A DNA stretch of 43,941 nt from a virus, in IMG/VR virus record IMGVR_UViG_3300031746_003924, positions 1 through 43,941 of that record; one strand, 5' to 3'. The notes under the pieces were generated by a model that saw only the letters and a program-made list of their open reading frames with translations, did no database searches and was not told the DNA's origin. Position numbers and translations under genes: made by a program. Numbering within the stretch: position 1 is the first letter of the stretch; each line of letters begins with the position of its first letter. Below, in pieces: positions 6,697 to 16,642 of the stretch.

Positions 6697-7104
6697 CTAG
6701 GAAATAATTTTTTTAAACTCCGACCAATCAATTGAATTGTCCCATACTTTATTTGCTTCAGAAAACATTCCCAATTTAATTATTTTTCCGATGAGATGGA
6801 CTCGCCGCCATGAGAAAAGCAGGTAGGTCCGTTCAACCCTAATCAATAGCCAACAGTGTTCACCTTTGTGGCCACGGTTCTGGAGCCACATCCGCTGCTG
6901 GTCGGTAAATCCCGGAACCTTAACAATTGTCACTGGGTTCTTCGGCCAGGAATAAAGTGCTTTTAATTCAATCCAACCGTTCACGTTATTTATCCCGTAG
7001 GAAATATCGGGCACTCCAGCCGAAAGTCGATCTTCATGCCTTGTAACATCCCATGATCCCTTCATCCCATTTCTTAGGTAAAACCACAACGATCGCTCCG
7101 CCAT
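6697..7104 (-). CDS. PD-(D/E)XK nuclease-like protein (VRR-NUC-like)
   Basis: 135 residues from ATG 7104, which overlaps the polymerase stop (TAATG) behind a GGGGGGAG ribosome site; an upstream in-frame start would add six residues. The signature is AGVPDISYG, a short hairpin, then WIELK, and a downstream Gln in GFTDQQRMWL. This matches the order D ... E-x-K ... Q of VRR-NUC and Holliday-resolvase-like nucleases. Tight coupling to the DNA polymerase suggests a role in processing branched replication DNA or in host DNA degradation. Confidence 0.65.
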   Translation of the reverse strand: MAERSLWFYLRNGMKGSWDVTRHEDRLSAGVPDISYGINNVNGWIELKALYSWPKNPVTIVKVPGFTDQQRMWLQNRGHKGEHCWLLIRVERTYLLFSWRRVHLIGKIIKLGMFSEANKVWDNSIDWSEFKKIIS

Positions 7105-9017
7105 TATTTTGCTCCCCCCCAATTTTCACCGAGGCTTGCATCGACGACGACGGGGACCTTGAACTTGATGGCTTCTTCCATGAGGTGAACCATCTCATCA
7201 AACGCCTCCTTTCCCTCAATCGTCCTTGGGACCGATTCGTCGAGCTCGTCGTGCACCGTCAGGTGAGGATAAAGGACCCCGAACACGCCCGCTTCGTAGC
7301 AGTCGACCATCGCCTTTTTGATAAGGTCGGCCGCGCTTCCCTGAATCACGGCGCTAAGAGCTCTGTGAACTCCTGCTCTCCTCGTTCCTGGCCGCGGGAT
7401 CTCTTCTTTATTCTTCCTTGCTTCAAGGATGATTCGATCAACTTCCTTGATCATCGCTTCCTGGCTTCTCATCGCATTAACTTTTTTTGAAAGTTTCCAG
7501 TCCGCGGGTTCCCAGAGGTTGAACCTTCTCCTCCTGTTAAGTATCGTTAAAACGTATCCCCTGTTCTGAGCCCGCTCCGACGCGGTTTGAAGGGTGGCCT
7601 TAACGAACGGGATCTTTTCATCATACTTTTTTCTAAACGCCTCGGCCTCGCCTCGTGATATCCCAAGATTTTTCGCGAGAGAATCTATCCCCATCCCATA
7701 TATGATTCCAAAGTTTACCGTCTTCGCTTCTCTGCGGGATATGGAGGCTTCTTCGGCGCACCACCCGTGGTAGTCGGTGCGGGGATCTCTTATATATTGG
7801 CTCCTAAATTCATGCGACCCAACCCCCACCGCATAGTGGGCGAAGATGCGAAATTCTATTTGCGAGTAGTCCGCCTTACCCCAGTCGCACCCATCCTCAG
7901 GAATGAACATAGATCTACACAGCGGGCCAAACTCGTCGTCTCGAACGGGGATGAACTGAAGGTTTGGGTGGGAAGAGGAAAATCTTCCCGTCACCGTCCC
8001 ATATTCATCGGAAAGCAGTTGGTTGAATAGGCAGTGGATCCTCCCTCCGATGAGTTGATCTCGTATGGATCCCTCGAGAAATGTGCCGATGAATTTGTCG
8101 AGCGTCCTGCATCGTACTATTAGTTTTGAAATTGGATGATCGTTTTTGTTCAACCAGTCCTGAGTAAACGACGGCTTCCTCGTCTTAGGAGTGAACGAGT
8201 ACTTTACTCCAAATTTATCGAACGCTTTAGCTATGGACTCAGCCGCCCAATGCTGGATCTCGAACCCCACAATTCTTTTTAATTCTCGCCTGTTTTTTAA
8301 AAGCTCCTTCTTTGAAGATTTGATGACCTTATCCAATTTATCAACGTCAATCCGCACTCCAGTTTTTCTCATCTGTAGCAAGAGAGGCATCAACCTCGTC
8401 TCCATTAAAAAAAGATCCCACAAATTTTCCGACCGGAGGATCGGCTCCTGCTTCTTGAATATCTCTTTTGATAGAATCGCGTCTTCTTCGGAGTACGGGC
8501 CAACGGCGCTCGCGGGAAGCCTCCACAAAAATTTCTTAGGATCTCCCTTCCAACCTCTTTCCTCACAAATCCGATCGATCTCAGTTTCGGCTTTTCCTCT
8601 CTTAAGATACTTTCTTCCAAGCGCGTCGAGGTTGTAGCTTCCGCCCTGATTCTCGTTGATGAGCGGCTCGGCATTTTGGACGTCGTACCACAATCCCTTC
8701 ACCTCAATCTTCTCCTCAGTTAAAAAGTCAAAGTCGTATAGGAGGTTGGCACCAAGCTTTATCTGATTCGGCCGACTCAGCTCAGTTCTAAGCCACTTGA
8801 AGACTGCTCCCTTGTTCAAGTTTGGCCCTTCCTCGTGACAGATGGGAAAGTATTGGCAGAAGTCGTCGTCGGCCGCGACCGTCACCCCGATGATATAGGC
8901 GCCGCGGCGAACTCCGGGTCCCTTCTTCTGAAGATCCTCGTCCCGAGTTTCAATGTCGACGACGATCTTTTTAGCGGAAGATAGATCGGGGAATTCTTCA
9001 GGCATCTCCCACGTCAT
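7104..9017 (-). CDS. Family A DNA polymerase with 3'-5' exonuclease
   Basis: 637 residues. The N-terminal DnaQ-type proofreading exonuclease shows Exo I (DIETRD, Asp21 and Glu23), Exo II (YDFDF, ~94-98) and Exo III (YSEEDA, ~175-180). The polymerase domain has motif A (DYSQIEFR, Asp383), motif B (RREAK...NFGIIYG, ~428-441, with Phe436 at the residue that governs sugar discrimination) and motif C (HDE, 589-591). The 5' nuclease domain of bacterial Pol I is absent, as usual in phages. This is the replicative polymerase, working with the primase, SSB-like protein and helicases encoded upstream. Confidence 0.96.
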   Translation of the reverse strand: MTWEMPEEFPDLSSAKKIVVDIETRDEDLQKKGPGVRRGAYIIGVTVAADDDFCQYFPICHEEGPNLNKGAVFKWLRTELSRPNQIKLGANLLYDFDFLTEEKIEVKGLWYDVQNAEPLINENQGGSYNLDALGRKYLKRGKAETEIDRICEERGWKGDPKKFLWRLPASAVGPYSEEDAILSKEIFKKQEPILRSENLWDLFLMETRLMPLLLQMRKTGVRIDVDKLDKVIKSSKKELLKNRRELKRIVGFEIQHWAAESIAKAFDKFGVKYSFTPKTRKPSFTQDWLNKNDHPISKLIVRCRTLDKFIGTFLEGSIRDQLIGGRIHCLFNQLLSDEYGTVTGRFSSSHPNLQFIPVRDDEFGPLCRSMFIPEDGCDWGKADYSQIEFRIFAHYAVGVGSHEFRSQYIRDPRTDYHGWCAEEASISRREAKTVNFGIIYGMGIDSLAKNLGISRGEAEAFRKKYDEKIPFVKATLQTASERAQNRGYVLTILNRRRRFNLWEPADWKLSKKVNAMRSQEAMIKEVDRIILEARKNKEEIPRPGTRRAGVHRALSAVIQGSAADLIKKAMVDCYEAGVFGVLYPHLTVHDELDESVPRTIEGKEAFDEMVHLMEEAIKFKVPVVVDASLGENWGGAK

Positions 9018-9433
9018 ATAAGCGTCTCCTTTTTCCAGAGATTTAATGCAGAAAATAAATCTTGTTCATAAACAATCTTTAATCCTCGAGATTCAATTGC
9101 TTCCGTTGCTAATATTCCCTGTCTCGATAATAATGGTTTATTAAGAACTAACCAAAAATCTACATTAAAAGATCTTAATATATTCGCATCTAACAGGACA
9201 CTTGGAAATTTATCATAAATTGCCGTTCCTGGTTTTTTCATTTGCGTCTTTAATTCTAAAGTAAGATAATGTCTTTTCCATTCTATAAAAAAATCTAGTC
9301 TTTGTTTTGTACCTTTCCACGAAAGCCATTCAGAAGAGAATTCTATTTTATAGGAAAGTTTTACAACTTCAATTATTTTTTTCACACGTTCTACTTGTTC
9401 TAAATTATTTGATACAGTATGATACATACTCAT
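9014..9433 (-). CDS. Putative PD-(D/E)XK endonuclease
   Basis: 139 residues. The ATG at 9433 overlaps the previous stop (ATGA) and lies behind AAAGGAGATAAAG; an upstream GTG/ATG extension is less likely. A core of KQRLDFFIEW then LTLELKTQ resembles the D ... (D/E)-x-K active site of restriction-like nucleases, with alternating strands around it. The C-terminal half (~100-139) looks like an alpha/beta extension. The gene is AT-richer than the polymerase next to it. The nuclease call is tentative. Confidence 0.45.
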   Translation of the reverse strand: MSMYHTVSNNLEQVERVKKIIEVVKLSYKIEFSSEWLSWKGTKQRLDFFIEWKRHYLTLELKTQMKKPGTAIYDKFPSVLLDANILRSFNVDFWLVLNKPLLSRQGILATEAIESRGLKIVYEQDLFSALNLWKKETLI

Positions 9434-9933
9434 ATCTTTATCTCCTTTAAATAAAGGCCTTCCCATTTCGTTGATAGTAAAATTTGTGCATTGTATTTTC
9501 CCCGAGCAATAAATATATTGCCTAAAATTCCACCGGAGGAAAACGATCCCTCATTTTTGCAGAATATGATTCGTCCTTTACGCAGAAATATTAAGGAAGA
9601 TCCCTTGACCAGTTTTTGAAACCATTTTGTCTCTATTCGAGGAAACACGAGAGCGATTCCATTATCATGTTCTACGAACTTATCTATAAACAATTCGATC
9701 AACCCTGTGGAATAAGGCGGATTCATCCATACTCGTCCAAACCATTCTCGATCTAATCCATTCATACGTTCCGTCCAATTTATTTTGGCGTGTGACCAAG
9801 GTCGAGGATCACCGGCGCAGGGATCAAGATCGAAAGGTCCTAAAACTCGGGTTATTTCTCTCGGCGTATTCCACTCATTAGTTTTACTTGGCGTAGAATA
9901 AAGAGTTGAAGTTATTTTGGATTTATTCTTCAT
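9430..9933 (-). CDS. Phage DNA N6-adenine methyltransferase (Dam-like)
   Basis: 167 residues, ATG 9933 behind AAGGAGGAGG. The segments EWNTPREI, FDLDPCAG (SAM-binding region), WMNPPYSTGLIELFIDKF (catalytic NPPY) and ALVFPRIETKWFQ match the small phage N6-adenine methyltransferase family, whose phage T1 member modifies GATC. Such enzymes shield phage DNA from restriction or from mismatch-type nucleases. Target specificity cannot be read here, but GATC is strikingly common in parts of this genome. Confidence 0.88.
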   Translation of the reverse strand: MKNKSKITSTLYSTPSKTNEWNTPREITRVLGPFDLDPCAGDPRPWSHAKINWTERMNGLDREWFGRVWMNPPYSTGLIELFIDKFVEHDNGIALVFPRIETKWFQKLVKGSSLIFLRKGRIIFCKNEGSFSSGGILGNIFIARGKYNAQILLSTKWEGLYLKEIKI

Positions 9934-9953: not shown

Positions 9954-10328
9954 TCAAATTTTATCGCGGAGATACTGCTTCAATTTTTCATCTTCTGGTT
10001 TGATCCTTATATTTCCTTCTACAAATATCTGGTATGAATCTCGCCCATATCTTCCTATCCCAGGAAGTTGGTCGAAGGGGATCCCCTGCAGAAGGCGCTT
10101 CGTCATCTCCCTCAAATTCTTCTCTCGAGCGTGGTAGAATCCAAGCGGCCTTAAAAAGGATATGATCTTCAACCGAGATCCACTTAAGAAGTGTCTGGGA
10201 GTCGGATACCTTCTAAAAAATTCGTCGATGATCGGCTCGGCCGTTTTGCCGACCACTCGATTTAGGAGGATGCACGAGGCAAGAACCTTCCACGGATCCT
10301 TTCGATATTTTTCCTGAATTAATCCCAT
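9954..10328 (-). CDS. HhH-GPD DNA glycosylase, MBD4-like
   Basis: 124 residues, close to a minimal glycosylase domain, ATG 10328 behind AAGGAG and overlapping the upstream gene by 10 bases. The order DPWKVL, LLNRVVGKTA, RRYPTP, LRPLGFY, then LPGIGRYGRDSYQIF and KPEDEKL follows the C-terminal domain of the vertebrate mismatch glycosylase MBD4 closely. The helix-hairpin-helix is at ~88-95 and the catalytic Asp is Asp97. The endonuclease III iron-sulfur Cys are absent, as in MBD4. MBD4 removes T, U or hydroxymethyl-U opposite G. An alternative is a glycosylase-fold base-modifying enzyme. Confidence 0.82.
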   Translation of the reverse strand: MGLIQEKYRKDPWKVLASCILLNRVVGKTAEPIIDEFFRRYPTPRHFLSGSRLKIISFLRPLGFYHAREKNLREMTKRLLQGIPFDQLPGIGRYGRDSYQIFVEGNIRIKPEDEKLKQYLRDKI

Positions 10329-11158
10329 ATATGCTCCTTGTATAAATCATATTTGCAAGTTCTTATCCCATGATAGTGGAGAAAGACGATTGGTTTTTTA
10401 TCCCGATAATCGCTTCGATAGAACACGTCCGAAAATCCTGATTGAATCAATTTTTTGGCGCAATTCATGCAAGGTCCTGAGGTGCAGAATAAGATCTTTT
10501 TAGAATCTTCTACCCCAAGTTTTAGAAGAGCGTTTTCTTCAGAATGTATGCAGCCGCATTGCCCCTCAATTCCATTGCAGGAATTTACCCAACCTTTCAC
10601 GGTGCCATTAAATCCTAAAGAATAAACCTTCTTCAAGTCCCCTGAAACAATGACCGAACCCGTCTTCATCCTAATACACGTGGATCGCATTGCAATCTGT
10701 TCGGCCATTCGCATATAAATTTCGTACATCGGAATTCGATTCAGAATTTTATTTTTATGAAGTTTGTGAGGATGATCGAAGGTTAATGTCAACTCCAAAT
10801 TTATCGGATGATTATTCTTTCCTATAAAATCTTTGTGATGGACTCGTTCCTTCTTCCATAAAGATCTTTTCAATTGATTTTCCATTATTTGAATATGTTC
10901 GTACTTTTGTTTTCCCTCTGCATAAGAAACCCAATACGGATTTTTATGATTTGATAACCATCTACCACCAGAATGAGATAATTTAACAGATGCTTCAATA
11001 CTTCGAATAGGAATGTTCAATCTTCTCATCGCGCGGGAAATCGTTTTTAAAGATGTGTTTAATTTCACGGCTATTTCGGATTGATTCATTAACTCGTTCC
11101 AATATAACGAGAAAAGTATCCCTGGATCTTCGATGAGAAATTTGGTGTTATTTCCCAT
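10319..11158 (-). CDS. HTH-HNH endonuclease fused to dCMP deaminase-like domain
   Basis: 279 residues from ATG 11158 (AAAGGAGG eight bases upstream); codons further upstream are in frame but lack a good ribosome site. Residues ~14-52 form a helix-turn-helix (NQSEIAVKLNTSLKTISRAM). Residues ~75-135 form an HNH nuclease (VHHKDFIGKNN ... NLELTL ... DHPHKLH). From ~143 on is a cytidine/deoxycytidylate deaminase: CIRMKTGSVIV, FNGTVKG, zinc site CIHSEEN (His205, catalytic Glu207) and PCMNC (Cys230, Cys233). The usual HAE is HSE here. Deamination would turn dCMP (or a 5-substituted dCMP) into the dUMP or dTMP series. Confidence 0.8.
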   Translation of the reverse strand: MGNNTKFLIEDPGILFSLYWNELMNQSEIAVKLNTSLKTISRAMRRLNIPIRSIEASVKLSHSGGRWLSNHKNPYWVSYAEGKQKYEHIQIMENQLKRSLWKKERVHHKDFIGKNNHPINLELTLTFDHPHKLHKNKILNRIPMYEIYMRMAEQIAMRSTCIRMKTGSVIVSGDLKKVYSLGFNGTVKGWVNSCNGIEGQCGCIHSEENALLKLGVEDSKKILFCTSGPCMNCAKKLIQSGFSDVFYRSDYRDKKPIVFLHYHGIRTCKYDLYKEHIWD

Positions 11159-11174
11159 AATATTTTCCTCCTTT

Positions 11175-11876
11175 TTAAAATATCCCCCTTCCTTCCAAGT
11201 CTTTAGCAAAAGCATGAAGAGAACCCACAAAATGAATCAGCCTCGCCGGCTTCGCGTCGACCTGTTCTGCTATATGAAACAGAAGCCGAACGGCGAGGTA
11301 CACGTCCGTGGAAAAAAACGCGAGAAAGTCGCAAGATCTTTGTGTATAGATTAGATTTAACGCACCATCCCGATTAATAAATTGATAGGCTAATGAACAC
11401 GGGACACGATCTCTTCCACCCCAATTCATTATATCCTGATTTACGTTGTATATCGTTATTATTGCCTGCCTCGTATTTGATCTGGATTTTAATTCATGAA
11501 TGACGTACGGGATTTGATACTGCATTCTTTCAGCATAAGAGTATGAAAACACCCCGTCGCGAAGAAACTTTTCCCACTTTGCTTTATCGTGGATCCACGC
11601 CTTTCCTGGATTTGGGTCGTAGGCGTTTGGGTAAAGCCTCTCTTTCGCCTCCTCCTTCGCCCAAAATAAATTGTTTCCCAGGTACTTCACCATCTCGTCA
11701 AGGCCAGAAAATCCGGTCAAAGCATAAGCGTACCCAGATATTTCTATGGTCCTGAACCCTGGGTCTTTGGAGACGTCCCTGTCTTGCACGGTGTCGGACT
11801 GATACCGGATCCCCATCTCAAACAGGTCGCGCTCCACCTCCTTGATCATCTCAACAGCATTTTGGTAAATTCTCAT
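11175..11876 (-). CDS. Thymidylate synthase / dCMP hydroxymethylase homologue
   Basis: 233 residues, ATG 11876 behind AAAGGAGGAG. The thymidylate synthase core is clear: nucleophile Cys160 in RVPCSLAYQF, YTQRSCDFLA (phosphate-binding Arg180), and LIHFVGSLHAF. Two deviations matter. The Asn that reads the pyrimidine in dTMP synthases (PFN-I-x-x-Y) is Asp191 in STDVYLAVRL, the change known from T4 dCMP hydroxymethylase. The His after the Cys is Ser161. The likely substrate is therefore dCMP, giving 5-hydroxymethyl- or 5-methyl-dCMP from methylene-tetrahydrofolate. The gene lies next to the methyltransferase fusion and the deaminase. Confidence 0.82.
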   Translation of the reverse strand: MRIYQNAVEMIKEVERDLFEMGIRYQSDTVQDRDVSKDPGFRTIEISGYAYALTGFSGLDEMVKYLGNNLFWAKEEAKERLYPNAYDPNPGKAWIHDKAKWEKFLRDGVFSYSYAERMQYQIPYVIHELKSRSNTRQAIITIYNVNQDIMNWGGRDRVPCSLAYQFINRDGALNLIYTQRSCDFLAFFSTDVYLAVRLLFHIAEQVDAKPARLIHFVGSLHAFAKDLEGRGIF

Positions 11877-14128
11877 AACTCCTCCTTTCTAAAGACCAGG
11901 ATCGTTTGATACAGCGGCGGGGTTGCTCCGAACTTCTTCTCATAGGTGTTGAGGTGAAGAGTTGGAGGATAGTGCTTCAACACCACCATGAATTCATATG
12001 CTAAATATTTGCTCAAAATATCTCCGATCATCTCGTGCAGCTTAAACGGCTCTCTATTCCGCATCATATCCTTTACTCCGATGACGAACCTCCCGCCAGG
12101 AGCGAGGTGGCCTATGCACTGAGAATAGATTGATTCAAGCGTGCTCCAATACTCCTTGTTCTCCTTTAAGAAAGCAAGGTTGTTGTACTTCGGGTCATAC
12201 CCTATCGTTTTGTTATCCCACTTCTCCTCGCACCTGGAAGCCATGTCATATTGCCTAACATCTCCGGAGTACGGAGGGTTATTTACAATCAGAGAAAATT
12301 TCATGCGCGACAGATTTTTTCCTATATTTCGCGCGTCTCCGTGCAGGATGATGCAGCGTTTTCCGAACGGGTTGTTCATCTTCACGTTATCTAATATTAG
12401 ATCCACAAATTCTATCTCCATCCCAACCGCATTTCTCTTTAGCCGAAGAGCCTCGACCAAGGTCGTCCCCGTTCCGACGGTTGGATCTAAGACCCAGTCT
12501 CCTTCTCTCGTGAACTCCTGAACCGCCCACCGAGCGACGTGGATCGGAGTCTTTGCTGGGTGCCTCGTCTTCTCCATCGGCGAATAGTACGAGTTCTTTT
12601 CGGTTCGATTGTAGTGAGTCCCGTCTGGTCGGATCAACTCGCCGCGATATTTCTTCGCGTATTTGCTCGCCCCAACATAGTCTGAAGGAAGAATCCTCCC
12701 TTTTCTTAAGCAAATTTTCTCGGGGTTACACTCAGGATGTTTGCCTCTTAATTTATCGGGCCCTATCGAATAGGTTCTTACGGGGGCAACCTTTAAGTCC
12801 TTGCCCGCGTGATCTGGCGTGTTCGTGGACGATTTTTTGGGGGTTACCAGGTTGATCGGCTCCTTTTCCGCGCCCTTTATCGCCTTGATTTTGGCCCTTG
12901 GTGTTCTTATGAGGGCAACCTTTAAGTCCTTGCCCGCGTGATCTGGCGCGCCATAGTTGCCTTGAATTGAACAGGGATACAGCCAGCAGGCCTCGCACGG
13001 GCGGCGCGATCCTTTCCTGCGGCACAGGCTCAATTTAGCTTCGTTGATGAACGGGTTTTCTGCGATGAGCCTCTTCCCCGTTACCTTGCGAAACTCCGCT
13101 CCTCTCTCGTGCGCCATGATCTGCTCCGAAATATAGGTGCAAAACTCCACGGGCATAAATTTTCCAATCTGCTTATACACGCAGGCATAAGCCTTTGGGT
13201 TGCGGAGAAAGTCGAGCGGATAAAATATGAAGTTGTCCGGGCACCCTTGAATCCTTGCCCGCTCTCTTTGTGTAAACGGCATCCCAGTATCTTCGCGGTA
13301 GTGGTTGTCTAAGGCCGATCCTCCTCCAGTCAAAACTGGTGAGCGATAATCTAACCTCGCTCGGTAGTATCCTGGGCGCTGCTTTCGCTCCCCCTTCTTA
13401 TTTAAGTACTCGAAGAGTTTCCCCGTAGGATAGTCTTTGAAGAATTCCCTCATCTCTCCGTAGGTGATCTTGTTTCCTTCTCTCACGATCCCGAACTGGT
13501 GCGCCGCCCACCCCTGCGGGATCACGTCTCCTCTTCTCCAGTGGACGTGGTTTATTTTTACGTCGTCCTTCTTCGGAAGATCCTTTATCACGTCGATCAA
13601 TTTTTTCTGGTGCTCAAATTCGCCGGGAAAGAATGTGAACTTCTTTTCCTTCTTGGCTCCGATCAAGAAGAATCTTCTGCGGAGAAACTGCGTATTTCCG
13701 TAGTGATAGTTGGAGATCCACTCAGGATATAGGTCGTAACCCGGAAGTTCTTCCGCGTATTTTTCTACCGGGACGGCGATGAGAGATTTTGGGAGGTTGT
13801 CCATGACGAAATAATTTGGGCTCACCTCCTTCACCATTTTGATGAACAGCGGGATGTCTCCAGGGTCGTCGAACTTCGGCTTGTTGCATCGGAGGTTGGA
13901 AAAGTTCCCGCACTCCGGATGAGAAAAAACTATGTCAATATTTTTAATGTCGGGAGCCTCTTCAAAAGCTTTTACCATATAGGTTCCAGGAAAATTCTTC
14001 TCAAAAGTTCCCGTATGATAGTATTTTCGCCACTCGATGTTTCCAATCACCTTAAATCCGGCCGATCTTGCCCCGATCAGCATGGATCCGATCCCGCAGG
14101 TAAGGCCCAGAGCAGTAAGTTGCTTCAT
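11873..14128 (-). CDS. Fused C5-cytosine-like and N6/N4-amino DNA methyltransferase
   Basis: 751 residues, ATG 14128 behind AAAGGAGGAAAG. Residues 1-~340 are a C5-cytosine methyltransferase: motif I ALGLTCGIGS, catalytic Cys73 in SHPECGNFS, motif VI as MDN instead of ENV, motif VIII QFLRRRFFLIGA and motif X YKQIGKFMP. A linker (~360-500) has four Cys (369, 378, 381, 386) and an 11-residue direct repeat (395-405 and 438-448). Residues ~505-751 are a second SAM enzyme with DPTVGTGTT (548-556) and NPPY (617-620), an amino-methyltransferase type. Both active sites look intact. It probably modifies phage DNA; the divergent motif VI could mean an altered base target. Confidence 0.85.
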   Translation of the reverse strand: MKQLTALGLTCGIGSMLIGARSAGFKVIGNIEWRKYYHTGTFEKNFPGTYMVKAFEEAPDIKNIDIVFSHPECGNFSNLRCNKPKFDDPGDIPLFIKMVKEVSPNYFVMDNLPKSLIAVPVEKYAEELPGYDLYPEWISNYHYGNTQFLRRRFFLIGAKKEKKFTFFPGEFEHQKKLIDVIKDLPKKDDVKINHVHWRRGDVIPQGWAAHQFGIVREGNKITYGEMREFFKDYPTGKLFEYLNKKGERKQRPGYYRARLDYRSPVLTGGGSALDNHYREDTGMPFTQRERARIQGCPDNFIFYPLDFLRNPKAYACVYKQIGKFMPVEFCTYISEQIMAHERGAEFRKVTGKRLIAENPFINEAKLSLCRRKGSRRPCEACWLYPCSIQGNYGAPDHAGKDLKVALIRTPRAKIKAIKGAEKEPINLVTPKKSSTNTPDHAGKDLKVAPVRTYSIGPDKLRGKHPECNPEKICLRKGRILPSDYVGASKYAKKYRGELIRPDGTHYNRTEKNSYYSPMEKTRHPAKTPIHVARWAVQEFTREGDWVLDPTVGTGTTLVEALRLKRNAVGMEIEFVDLILDNVKMNNPFGKRCIILHGDARNIGKNLSRMKFSLIVNNPPYSGDVRQYDMASRCEEKWDNKTIGYDPKYNNLAFLKENKEYWSTLESIYSQCIGHLAPGGRFVIGVKDMMRNREPFKLHEMIGDILSKYLAYEFMVVLKHYPPTLHLNTYEKKFGATPPLYQTILVFRKEEL
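12784..12819. repeat. 36-bp direct repeat, copy 1
   Basis: A perfect 36-base match to 12913-12948, 129 bases away, inside the linker of the methyltransferase fusion. The period is a multiple of three, so both copies encode the same peptide (PDHAGKDLKVA). Confidence 0.95.
12913..12948. repeat. 36-bp direct repeat, copy 2
   Basis: Second copy of the repeat at 12784-12819. The unit of 43 codons between copy starts includes a Lys-rich spacer, so the linker may have grown by in-frame duplication. Confidence 0.95.
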
Positions 14129-14153
14129 CTTTCCTCCTTTCTAACCGCGTATT

Positions 14154-14792
14154 TTAGTACTGGCTCCTCTGACGAAATTTATTAACCTCCGATTTTTTAA
14201 AATAGTAGTCGTAAGCCTTTTCATAGGTCATGCCGATGGCCTCAGCAAACGAGGCCCAGAGAATAAGAACTCTCTGCAATTGACTGTGAAATTTTAGGAC
14301 GTCCGTCTCCATCTGAGCCTGCTTCCACGGCTTATTCTTAAGGCAGTTCATCGCCATCCCGAGCTCGATGATGAGGATCGTGAACCCGTACTGTATCGTT
14401 GGAAGCGCGGGAGAAGATTTGTACAAAGATTTTAGCCGATCGTCCCCAGTCTTATAGATGGGAAAATCTTCGGCCCCGATCCCGTTCATGATTAAAAGCT
14501 CAAGTATAAAGTGGAGGGCATCCGCGGCTTCTTCAAATCGGTGCGCCTCGTGATCTCTGGGAGCGTCCATGCACTCCGCCAACTCTTCCGTGATCCTCCA
14601 CGCGAAGTCTTTGCAGACGTACTGGCACCGAGGGTCGTCGATGTCGAACTTATCCGGAAGAATCGCGCCGCTTCCCACCCCGTTCTTCTTCTCAATATCG
14701 TGGTACTTGATCATGAGCTCCTTCTGTCGATCAAACATCTCTTCCAAAGGATCCTTCTCCGCTTTTCTTGACTCAACATCTTCAACGTTCAT
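14154..14792 (-). CDS. All-alpha dNTP pyrophosphatase (dUTPase/dCTPase-like)
   Basis: 212 residues, ATG 14792 behind AGAGGAGGT, overlapping the asparagine-synthase-like gene by 11 bases. The Mg-binding pattern of the all-alpha pyrophosphatase superfamily is visible: EELAECMDAP and then HRFEEAADALHFILELLI. This superfamily holds dimeric dUTPases, MazG proteins and the T4 dCTPase. With a dCMP-type modifying enzyme in the same operon, hydrolysis of dCTP (to exclude plain cytosine) is as likely as hydrolysis of dUTP. The substrate cannot be told from sequence. Confidence 0.72.
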   Translation of the reverse strand: MNVEDVESRKAEKDPLEEMFDRQKELMIKYHDIEKKNGVGSGAILPDKFDIDDPRCQYVCKDFAWRITEELAECMDAPRDHEAHRFEEAADALHFILELLIMNGIGAEDFPIYKTGDDRLKSLYKSSPALPTIQYGFTILIIELGMAMNCLKNKPWKQAQMETDVLKFHSQLQRVLILWASFAEAIGMTYEKAYDYYFKKSEVNKFRQRSQY

Positions 14793-16161
14793 AATCTGCT
14801 ACCTCCTCTCTGAAGAATTTTATGCAATCTAACCTCCACTTGACTCGGTCGATCCTTACCTCAGGGATCTTTAGAGCCACCTTCTCTCGATCAAGGATCT
14901 GGTTTGGGACGAGGTCCTTAAACGCAAACTTCAGCATCTCTTTTTTTCTCCTCATGCTCCACGGGATCCTCAGCGCATAATCGACGACGGATGTAGAAAG
15001 GAACGGGCACCTTAGTTCAACCGTGGAAGCCGCCATCAAAGAATCGAGCCGAGGCAAGTGATAATATATCAGCTCTTGAAACACGTCGGACATTTGCGGG
15101 TCGTACTCCTGCGCTCTCTGGTATCCCCCGAAAAGCTCATCCGCTCCGTCCCCAGATAAAGCGACCTTAAACCCAGCGGCTTTGACCGCTCTCCCCATGG
15201 CGAATTGCGGGAGGACGGACCCAAGATCCACCGGCGACTGATTTGCTCGAAATGCGTCCTTCATATTTGTGACTTCCGCGGAAACGACGCGGATCAATTT
15301 AACGTTGCTCGGGATCTTAAGCTCCTCCAAAAATTCTGACTCGTCGTTCTCGACGTGAAAGACGGTGAAGTTATGAGTTTCTCGCTCCACCAATTTATAT
15401 ACGATCGTGCTGTCGAGCCCGCCAGAAAGAAGCAGCGACACCGGCACGTCTGAAACGAGCCTCCTCTTCACCGCGCGCTCGATCAAGGATCGGAGATGCT
15501 TGACGTTTGGGGCATCATATTTTTCTTCGCACCTCCAACTCCAATACTGCTCATTAGATATCATCTTTCCATACTGAGATAAGATCAAGCACCTTCCCGC
15601 GGGGATCTTTTTTATCTCATCAAACGGCGTGGATCCATCGAACGCGTATCCCCACTTGGCAACGGACGAGTAGTATGTTAGATCTCTCGTCACTTTCCCA
15701 AGGTTAACCAATGGCCAAATTTCAGAGCTAATCGCTAACGGCTTAAACCGAATGTACAAAGGCTTCTTCGCAAGCGGATCTGTGATGACGTAGACCTGCT
15801 TCTTTAAGTTGTCGATGAACGCGGCCGCCCAGAATCCGTCAAACGATCGAAACGCTCGCAACCCTCTCTTCTCCCACGCCTTTAGCATGACGGGGAGATC
15901 CGATTCGGCTTCCGGATCAAGTTCTCTAAAGTTAAATACTTCCCCAACAAAGGCCGCGTCCCACCGCCCGCATGATTGCGGATGATCCCACCTGCTGCTT
16001 AAACCCTGGATCGGAAGGCGAACGTGCCCGAGCCAAACTTTTCCGTTGAAGTAGGACTTGATCTTTTTTCGAATTCCGCGGTGGGACAGGTCCTCGTTCA
16101 TCCGAAGGATCTGGGAAGCGGCTTCGAGGTCCGAGTTAAACAGGAGATTGATTCCGCACAT
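14782..16161 (-). CDS. Asparagine synthase-like glutamine amidotransferase
   Basis: 459 residues counted from ATG 16161, chosen because it places Cys at position 2 (MCGIN), the Ntn nucleophile of class II amidotransferases. The N-terminal domain has LSHRG and VGEVFNF. The synthetase domain has the PP-loop SGGLDST (~246-252) and SGDGADELFGGYQR. It is shorter than bacterial AsnB (about 550). It should use glutamine ammonia and ATP to form an amide on a carboxylate. The substrate may be aspartate or, given the neighbours, a modified nucleotide or base. It overlaps the kinase gene by 26 bases. Confidence 0.85.
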   Translation of the reverse strand: MCGINLLFNSDLEAASQILRMNEDLSHRGIRKKIKSYFNGKVWLGHVRLPIQGLSSRWDHPQSCGRWDAAFVGEVFNFRELDPEAESDLPVMLKAWEKRGLRAFRSFDGFWAAAFIDNLKKQVYVITDPLAKKPLYIRFKPLAISSEIWPLVNLGKVTRDLTYYSSVAKWGYAFDGSTPFDEIKKIPAGRCLILSQYGKMISNEQYWSWRCEEKYDAPNVKHLRSLIERAVKRRLVSDVPVSLLLSGGLDSTIVYKLVERETHNFTVFHVENDESEFLEELKIPSNVKLIRVVSAEVTNMKDAFRANQSPVDLGSVLPQFAMGRAVKAAGFKVALSGDGADELFGGYQRAQEYDPQMSDVFQELIYYHLPRLDSLMAASTVELRCPFLSTSVVDYALRIPWSMRRKKEMLKFAFKDLVPNQILDREKVALKIPEVRIDRVKWRLDCIKFFREEVADYER

Positions 16162-16642
16162 AGTCGAACACCCCCATCCCAAGATTTCTTGCCTCACTTA
16201 TTCTCCTGTCATACATCGAGACGATGCTCGGCATATTTGCCCGCACGCGAATGAAGTGGACCTCTCTCTTGTATGACTTCCCTTCATCTTGAATTACTCT
16301 GTCCATCTCCTCCTTCACGTATCTTAAGAGAACTTCTATCGAAGGCCGGCAATATATTAAGACCCAACCTCGATCCACGTATCTTTGAATCAACCGCTTA
16401 TACTCATTCGGCTCAAGAACCGATCGACCGCGGAGCACGGGCCCATACACATGCTCCGTGATCAAGCTCGCTCGATCCAAGATGCTTCCAAACTGCTTGA
16501 ACTGAAACTCTATTCGCTCAAGAATATCTTCTCTGGATTCTGGCGGACCGCCCGCGTGAAATATCTCCGCATTAAAGCCTCTTGCGATTTTATTCGCGAG
16601 AGTAGTTTTTCCAGATCCATCCGGACCTTCTACTATAAACAT
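16136..16642 (-). CDS. P-loop dNMP (thymidylate-type) kinase
   Basis: 168 residues, ATG 16642 behind AAGGAGGG. Walker A is GPDGSGKTT at 6-14, with the overall form of thymidylate kinases: ITEHVYGPVLRGRSVL in the middle and CRPSIEVLLRYVKEEMD towards the lid region. A phage dNMP kinase of this sort would phosphorylate dTMP or a modified dNMP such as 5-hydroxymethyl-dCMP, as T4 gene 1 kinase does. The gene is the first downstream of the hairpin terminator at 16681-16713. Confidence 0.75.
   Translation of the reverse strand: MFIVEGPDGSGKTTLANKIARGFNAEIFHAGGPPESREDILERIEFQFKQFGSILDRASLITEHVYGPVLRGRSVLEPNEYKRLIQRYVDRGWVLIYCRPSIEVLLRYVKEEMDRVIQDEGKSYKREVHFIRVRANMPSIVSMYDRRISEARNLGMGVFDYVRNQSPV

Follow-up and report, generated by a model that had tools for sequence, protein, structure and literature searches.

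The IMG/VR virus record IMGVR_UViG_3300031746_003924, analysed here over its whole length as a window of 43,941 bases, carries tailed-phage genes according to family searches: its plus strand encodes a terminase, a portal protein and head proteins, its minus strand a primase, helicases and a family A polymerase. Positions 9954-16642 hold seven minus-strand genes, co-directional and overlapping or nearly so, which encode a P-loop kinase, an AsnB-like ligase, an all-alpha NTP pyrophosphatase, a fusion of a C5 and an amino DNA methyltransferase, a thymidylate synthase (TS) homologue, an HNH-deaminase and an MBD4-like glycosylase. The same block of seven had been listed from the sequence alone (hereafter the sequence-only reading), and each member now has family or structure matches (Table 1). 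We find it well supported that the DNA of this phage contains a modified cytosine. This bears out the sequence-only reading in outline; the core that it missed is the C5 domain of the fusion gene, a divergent, CmoX-like subfamily of the C5-methyltransferase fold.

The cassette is more than a chance assembly, since these genes are found, in the same order, across many independent contigs. A viral scan with the divergent C5 domain returned 36 loci, which, with duplicates merged and the window added, gave 37 contigs. AsnB is encoded in 35 of these, a synthase with Arg at position 143 in 34, and the deaminase and the pyrophosphatase in 31 each; the amino methyltransferase (18), the kinase (13) and the glycosylase (two) are less frequent. 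Two of the three contigs without the synthase are just 5-10 kb long. The usual order is kinase, AsnB, pyrophosphatase, divergent C5 enzyme, amino methyltransferase (where present), synthase, deaminase and polymerase. AsnB and the divergent C5 enzyme are core partners of the synthase, rather than an unexplained enzyme and a normal methyltransferase. We found no relative with the whole set among isolated phages, and a search of GTDB genomes found cassette contigs in two metagenome-assembled genomes only.

Table 1. Genes, domains and key codons of the cassette and its downstream neighbours in the window
Feature	Position	Strand	Evidence
P-loop nucleotide kinase (thymidylate-kinase/deoxynucleoside-kinase-like), first cassette gene	16136..16642	minus	GPDGSGKT motif
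AsnB-like ligase with class II glutamine amidotransferase domain	14782..16161	minus	PF00733 E 5.6e-42; GATase_6 PF13522
All-alpha NTP pyrophosphatase (dCTPase/dUTPase type)	14154..14792	minus	PF08761 E 4.9e-8; phrog_173/12184
Divergent C5 domain of fusion gene	13034..14128	minus	HPEC (Cys73), DNL (Asp110), Lys323 in motif X
Codon of Lys323 (CmoX Arg350 / M.HhaI Asn304 position)	13160..13162	minus	alignments to M.HaeIII and S-B43 CmoX
Linker and amino (N4/N6) methyltransferase domain	11873..13033	minus	PF01555 E 4.5e-19; DPTVGTGTT, NNPPY
TS-superfamily enzyme, Arg143/Asp177 clade	11175..11876	minus	PF00303 E 7e-15
Codon of Arg157 (E. coli L143 position)	11406..11408	minus	residue table
Codon of Asp191 (E. 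coli N177 position)	11304..11306	minus	gap-free alignment, residue table
HTH/HNH-like region fused to dCMP-deaminase domain	10319..11158	minus	PF00383 E 9e-13, phrog_174, phrog_7545
MBD4-like HhH-GPD DNA glycosylase, accessory	9954..10328	minus	MBD4 (4ew4) full-length match, E 1.7e-19
Dam-type adenine methyltransferase, accessory	9430..9933	minus	PF05869 E 1.5e-12; same transcription direction
Family A DNA polymerase, downstream neighbour	7104..9017	minus	PF00476 E 1.9e-64; also in 22 of 37 loci

The synthase (positions such as 143 and 177 in E. coli ThyA numbering) keeps the equivalents of the ThyA catalytic Cys, R166, S167, D169 and H207, and has Asp at N177, Ser at H147 and Arg at L143. Its C-terminal tail is missing: only 11 residues remain from the Y209 position onward, where ThyA has 56. 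A ThyA-type dTMP synthase was rejected, as Asn177, His147, Leu143 and the tail are all absent. The Asp noticed by the sequence-only reading at the Asn position is real: Asp191 aligns without gaps with N177, where Asp selects cytosine (PMC8670742, PMC6400193). This residue is shared with T4-type dCMP hydroxymethylases, which also have an acidic residue three positions before the catalytic Cys (catalytic Asp145 in T4, at the L143 position; PMC6400193); here this place is taken by Arg157, the same in every clade member. The residue table divides the superfamily by position 143: dTMP synthases have Leu there, T4-type hydroxymethylases Asp, Xp12-type enzymes Asn, 5-hydroxy-dCMP synthases Glu, and all members of the present clade Arg. 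At 147 the clade has the MetaGPA-type residue, Ser/Thr (PMC8670742).

A viral scan with the single synthase sequence gave no matches, and an alignment of four relatives as query succeeded, recovering 29 related loci from IMG/VR, all with Asp177. The clade is monophyletic (ultrafast bootstrap 100), separate from dTMP synthases and sister to the 5-hydroxy-dCMP synthases (98); it is a new clade, marked by Arg143 and the missing tail. Grouping with ordinary dTMP synthases, which by the sequence-only reading would have refuted its modified cytosine, was not found, and Asp177 runs throughout a fully supported clade. Membership in the 5-hydroxy-dCMP synthases was also rejected, as the window enzyme falls beside the AfhB/Mosigvirus clade and has Arg143 and Asp169 where those enzymes have Glu143 and Asn169. 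The best Foldseek match of its AlphaFold model (pLDDT 94.9) is the dCMP hydroxylase structure PDB 9iqc (with 9iqu), described as a riboflavin-dependent monooxygenase with dCMP; the CMP hydroxymethylase MilA is also among the best. The folate residues E58 and D169 are both lost in the 5-hydroxy-dCMP hydroxylases and both retained in the window enzyme; in a second group of relatives, also with AsnB and the divergent C5 enzyme, E58 is replaced by His (Ala in one). Dihydrofolate reductase (DHFR) was absent from the 34 cassette records searched and present in an Xp12-like control, which, together with the missing tail, points away from a methyl product. Our proposal for the synthase is hydroxymethylation or hydroxylation of dCMP at C5. 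Because E58 and D169 are kept and no DHFR was seen, we favour 5-hydroxymethyl-dCMP over 5-hydroxy-dCMP as first product, and both over 5-methyl-dCMP. In three human gut phages (L001, L002, L003), an Arg143/Asp177 synthase adjoins a pyrophosphatase of the same kind, with no AsnB or divergent C5 gene in the region read. Since L001 additionally encodes ThyX, its dTMP probably does not come from the Arg143 synthase.

The fusion gene product (11873-14128) matches PF00145 (E 8e-24) and PF01555 (E 4.5e-19). Its closest relatives have the two domains as separate genes (L010, L011, L012, L015, L018), and another fusion occurs in L137. In the divergent C5 subfamily, motif IV reads HP[ED]C-GN-[FY]S in place of PPCQ.FS, motif VI reads D[ND]L in place of ENV, and the Asn of GN in motif X is Lys in every aligned row (YKQIGKFMPV in the window, YKMIGNAVPV in M.HaeIII). 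At this site six C5 enzymes of isolated phages have Asn in four cases and Gln in one, and one is unalignable. An ordinary C5 methyltransferase was rejected given the loss of the canonical motifs. The residues around C5 and N4 of the target base, P80, Q82 and E119 in M.HhaI numbering, are also all changed. In isolated phages, matches to the subfamily reach at most about 31% identity, at that level over part of the length only.

A published enzyme with a comparable change is CmoX, a DNA carboxymethyltransferase described in December 2025, whose Arg350 binds the carboxylate of carboxy-S-adenosylmethionine (Cx-SAM); the engineered variant M.MpeI N374K accepts this donor as well (PMC12783734). In our alignment the Arg of VGRMVPP in CmoX of Synechococcus phage S-B43 is residue 350, with Cys98 in place, and the invariant Lys323 supplies a cationic residue at the same position. 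The published signature of SPPC with Arg350 is replaced in the window by SHPEC with Lys; the CmoX survey demanded both SPPC and R350 (PMC12783734) and so would miss this family. The AlphaFold model (pLDDT 91.1) has a C5-methyltransferase fold, with CmoX (8yf3) among the top Foldseek matches, and an asparagine-synthetase-type ligase, as expected of CmoY, is encoded beside the CmoX-like gene in 35 of the 37 contigs. From these sequence features we propose that the divergent C5 enzyme transfers a carboxymethyl group, and together with AsnB it looks like a CmoX/CmoY-type carboxymethylation-amidation pair. Two contigs carry tandem divergent C5 genes (L013 4422-6829, L138 7945-10607), perhaps differing in target motif. 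Elsewhere, two C5 genes with a canonical ENV and a motif X Lys lie beside an Arg143 synthase (L024 7923-10347), possibly another CmoX-like branch.

AsnB has an N-terminal Cys in MCGI and an SGGLDS PP-loop. Its true start is the MCGI codon at 16161 rather than a GTG at 16197; this puts the catalytic Cys at residue 2, the position required in class II glutamine amidotransferases. We propose that it amidates a carboxylate on the modified base; searches among isolated phages gave four weak matches only. The kinase is thymidylate-kinase-like at the superfamily level only (PF02223 E 7e-4, under the Pfam cut-off; weak phrog_761 match), and its family profile matches YorR (the nearest solved structure), dGuo kinase and TMP kinases. 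It directly precedes AsnB in cassette relatives and in the jumbo phage contigs G061 and G052 (L187, L188, L189), which combine the kinase-AsnB pair with a glycosylase and lack the divergent C5 gene; G061 also carries an Arg143 synthase. The dCTPase gp56 of T4, used as query, finds the cassette pyrophosphatases at E<1e-4.

MBD4-like enzymes act on T:G mismatches. The window glycosylase aligns with the MBD4 motif containing the catalytic Asp (...PED.KL..Y). As a core cassette gene it was rejected, since only two of the 37 cassette contigs, the window and L155, carry it. The proposal that it repairs deaminated modified cytosine fits what we see, with the change that the gene is accessory. The 45 glycosylase records searched contain no divergent C5 gene. 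PF00303 matches occur in 14 of them, 12 of which proved on reading to encode one or more Asp177 enzymes; this is a link between MBD4-like enzymes and cytosine modification that does not depend on the window. In the Xp12-type phages AXL1, DoCa6, YB23 and Donnerlittchen, the glycosylase lies beside a pyrophosphatase, an Asp177 synthase and a dCMP deaminase, with DHFR where read. The sequence-only reading knew of no described phage system with its set; this holds for isolated phages as regards the whole set, yet four of the functions stand in a row in Xp12/AXL1.

Xp12 has 5-methylcytosine for all its cytosine, and AXL1 resists 26 of 31 restriction enzymes; in the AXL1 study, ENDO3c turned up in AXL1 and Xp12 alone, its likeness to MBD4 went unrecognised and the modification mechanism was left open (PMC9206674). 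In AXL1 (L006 9914-12576; also L005 and L008), the gene adjoining this MBD4-like ENDO3c and labelled thymidylate synthase has Asp177, Asn143 and the tail. Judged on these residues, such a synthase is a candidate dCMP methylase for the 5-methylcytosine of Xp12. In another phage (L101 9226-10387), the glycosylase gene overlaps a second TS-like gene, which lacks the RSxD motif, and an ordinary Asn177 synthase is also present.

Drawing on gene content, conservation, active-site residues, phylogeny and co-occurrence, we infer, step by step, a chemistry by which the phage would hypermodify the cytosine of its DNA in two stages, with a repair enzyme as an accessory; we give this scheme an even chance of being right. 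In the first stage, acting on the nucleotide pool, the pyrophosphatase would hydrolyse dCTP and/or dUTP to monophosphates, the Asp177/Arg143 synthase would place a hydroxyl-bearing group on C5 of dCMP (5-hydroxymethyl being likelier, 5-hydroxy possible), and the kinase with host enzymes would phosphorylate this product up to a triphosphate that the phage polymerase can use. In the second stage, after replication, the divergent C5 enzyme would flip out the modified cytosine and transfer to it a carboxymethyl group held by Lys323, the probable acceptor being the oxygen of the C5 handle; AsnB would then turn the new carboxylate into a carboxamide with glutamine-derived ammonia. Such an O-alkylation would be the DNA counterpart of the synthesis of 5-carboxymethoxyuridine (cmo5U) in tRNA. 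Following deamination, the MBD4-like glycosylase may excise the T-, hydroxymethyl-U- or hydroxy-U-like base opposite G. That virion DNA contains an undescribed cytosine made in this way, by an Arg143 type of TS enzyme, O-alkylation by a C5 fold and then amidation, for example 5-(carbamoylmethoxymethyl)cytosine or 5-(carbamoylmethoxy)cytosine, is a tentative suggestion that we would not put as high as even.

That the second enzyme works on the product of the synthase is suggested by the changed residues around its target base, by the near-constant presence of the synthase and by the lack of a PF00303 gene in S-B43. Several observations weigh against this scheme. The S-B43 result is not conclusive, as it depends on the PF00303 model, and this model failed to pick up the L155 synthase that phmmer found. 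Arg143 is neither the Asp of T4 hydroxymethylase nor the Glu of 5-hydroxy-dCMP synthases, so that known signatures do not reveal the first product. The divergent C5 enzyme retains its catalytic Cys, though O-alkylation would need none. No CmoA (the Cx-SAM synthase) was found in the window, in 36 relatives or in the two metagenome-assembled genomes holding cassette contigs, which leaves the Cx-SAM donor unproved, and pairing with the new Glu/Asp72 might be the role of Lys323 instead. In the search of the window and relatives, E. coli alone gave a control match above the cut-off, and a highly diverged CmoA could escape. Finally, the glycosylase is rare among cassette contigs.

Other readings were weighed. 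The phage might only replace its cytosine with 5-hydroxymethylcytosine, as T4 does, or with 5-methylcytosine, as Xp12 does, with an ordinary or orphan C5 gene, AsnB as a metabolic helper and the glycosylase repairing the deaminated modified base. Arg143 synthases do occur without AsnB and the divergent C5 gene in the loci read (L021, L022, L025-L038, gut phages), and the kinase, pyrophosphatase and synthase resemble T4 gp1, gp56 and gp42. We nevertheless think replacement alone unlikely: both supposed bystanders are present in nearly every member of the set, every row of the C5 alignment lacks the canonical PC/EN residues and has gained Lys323, a C5 already substituted leaves a C5 methyltransferase no work, and the tail, Asn143 and DHFR of the Xp12 type are all missing. 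Conversely, the synthase might serve other cytosines or another purpose, and the divergent C5 enzyme might carboxymethylate C5 of plain cytosine at a short motif, with AsnB amidating it to 5-carbamoylmethylcytosine. The kept catalytic Cys, the Lys at the clamp site, an AsnB with a glutaminase domain and the close precedent of S-B43 (PMC12783734) agree with this chemistry. The synthase found in 34 of 37 contigs instead implies joint action, S-B43 lacks one by PF00303, all three target-proximal residues are altered and CmoA was not found; we regard modification of plain cytosine as decidedly unlikely.

Within the two-stage scheme, the synthase may instead be a dCMP 5-hydroxylase, the divergent C5 enzyme then yielding 5-carboxymethoxycytosine in parallel with tRNA cmo5U, where CmoB acts on 5-hydroxyuridine. 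The sister relationship to 5-hydroxy-dCMP synthases (bootstrap 98; PMC13390438) and the best solved fold, 9iqc, speak for this branch; as the window enzyme keeps the folate residues E58 and D169 that the hydroxylases have lost, and has Arg in place of Glu at 143, we see in it a minority possibility. The remaining reading combines ordinary nucleotide metabolism with a post-replicative 5-methylcytosine methyltransferase whose T:G mismatches the glycosylase repairs. Mig.Mth, which repairs T:G for a methyltransferase on an archaeal plasmid, is a precedent, the C5 fold is present, and the known activity of MBD4-like enzymes suits it. Asp177 in every synthase of the clade, the lost canonical motifs and the conservation of the set where the glycosylase is absent make it very improbable.

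Around the cassette, G+C content drops to 0.29 in 9014-9466, which has no family match, to 0.365 in the deaminase gene (10319-11158) and to 0.39 in the nearby Dam gene, against 0.48. From their low G+C (0.29 and 0.37), 9014-9466 and 10319-11158 are probably recent arrivals between synthase and polymerase. A small gene after the polymerase (6697-7122) is kept in nine cassette contigs, and its product resembles a VRR-NUC-type nuclease, judged by eye.

The modified cytosine may shield the phage genome from bacterial defences. As targets for study, the cassette offers a TS clade whose step-deciding position holds a new residue, a C5 fold that would be a natural equivalent of M.MpeI N374K, and the ligase. 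It also lets the unexplained ENDO3c gene of AXL1/Xp12 be read as encoding an MBD4-like enzyme that would guard modified cytosine against deamination. The window protein matches the MBD4 glycosylase domain over its full length, including the catalytic-Asp motif, and differs in being phage-borne and in lacking a methyl-CpG-binding domain.

Compared with known systems, the cassette appears to be a variant of the one first described in December 2025. It shares with CmoA-CmoX-CmoY of S-B43 (PMC12783734) the C5-methyltransferase fold, a cationic residue at the M.HhaI N304 position and an adjoining asparagine-synthetase-like ligase, but has Lys for Arg350, HP[ED]C for SPPC and D[ND]L for ENV, no CmoA found, and a ligase with a glutaminase domain, as in one large group of the AsnB-like ligases carried by CmoX phages (PMC12783734); the Asp177 synthase, pyrophosphatase, kinase and deaminase are additions. 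The analogy with T4 (gp56, gp42, gp1) drawn by the sequence-only reading holds for the pyrophosphatase, the nucleotide kinase and an Asp177 TS-family enzyme without a full C-terminal tail, and fails at the T4 signature Asp145, here Arg; the second-stage enzymes also differ, and no glucosyltransferase is among the annotated genes. The Xp12/AXL1 type likewise groups an MBD4-like glycosylase with a pyrophosphatase, an Asp177 synthase and a dCMP deaminase in a single block, but its synthase has Asn143 and the tail, DHFR adjoins, and the regions read contain neither AsnB nor the divergent C5 gene. An Xp12-type 5-methylcytosine system was rejected for the cassette, which has neither a tailed synthase nor DHFR. 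The Mosigvirus 5-hydroxy-dCMP synthases (PDB 9iqu, 9iqc) resemble our enzyme as a tailless sister clade with Asp177, and differ in Glu at 143, Asn at 169 and the loss of E58, their products being arabinosylated (PMC13390438). The cassette links two routes known only apart, nucleotide change before replication, as in T4 and Xp12, and DNA carboxymethylation with amide formation, as in S-B43.

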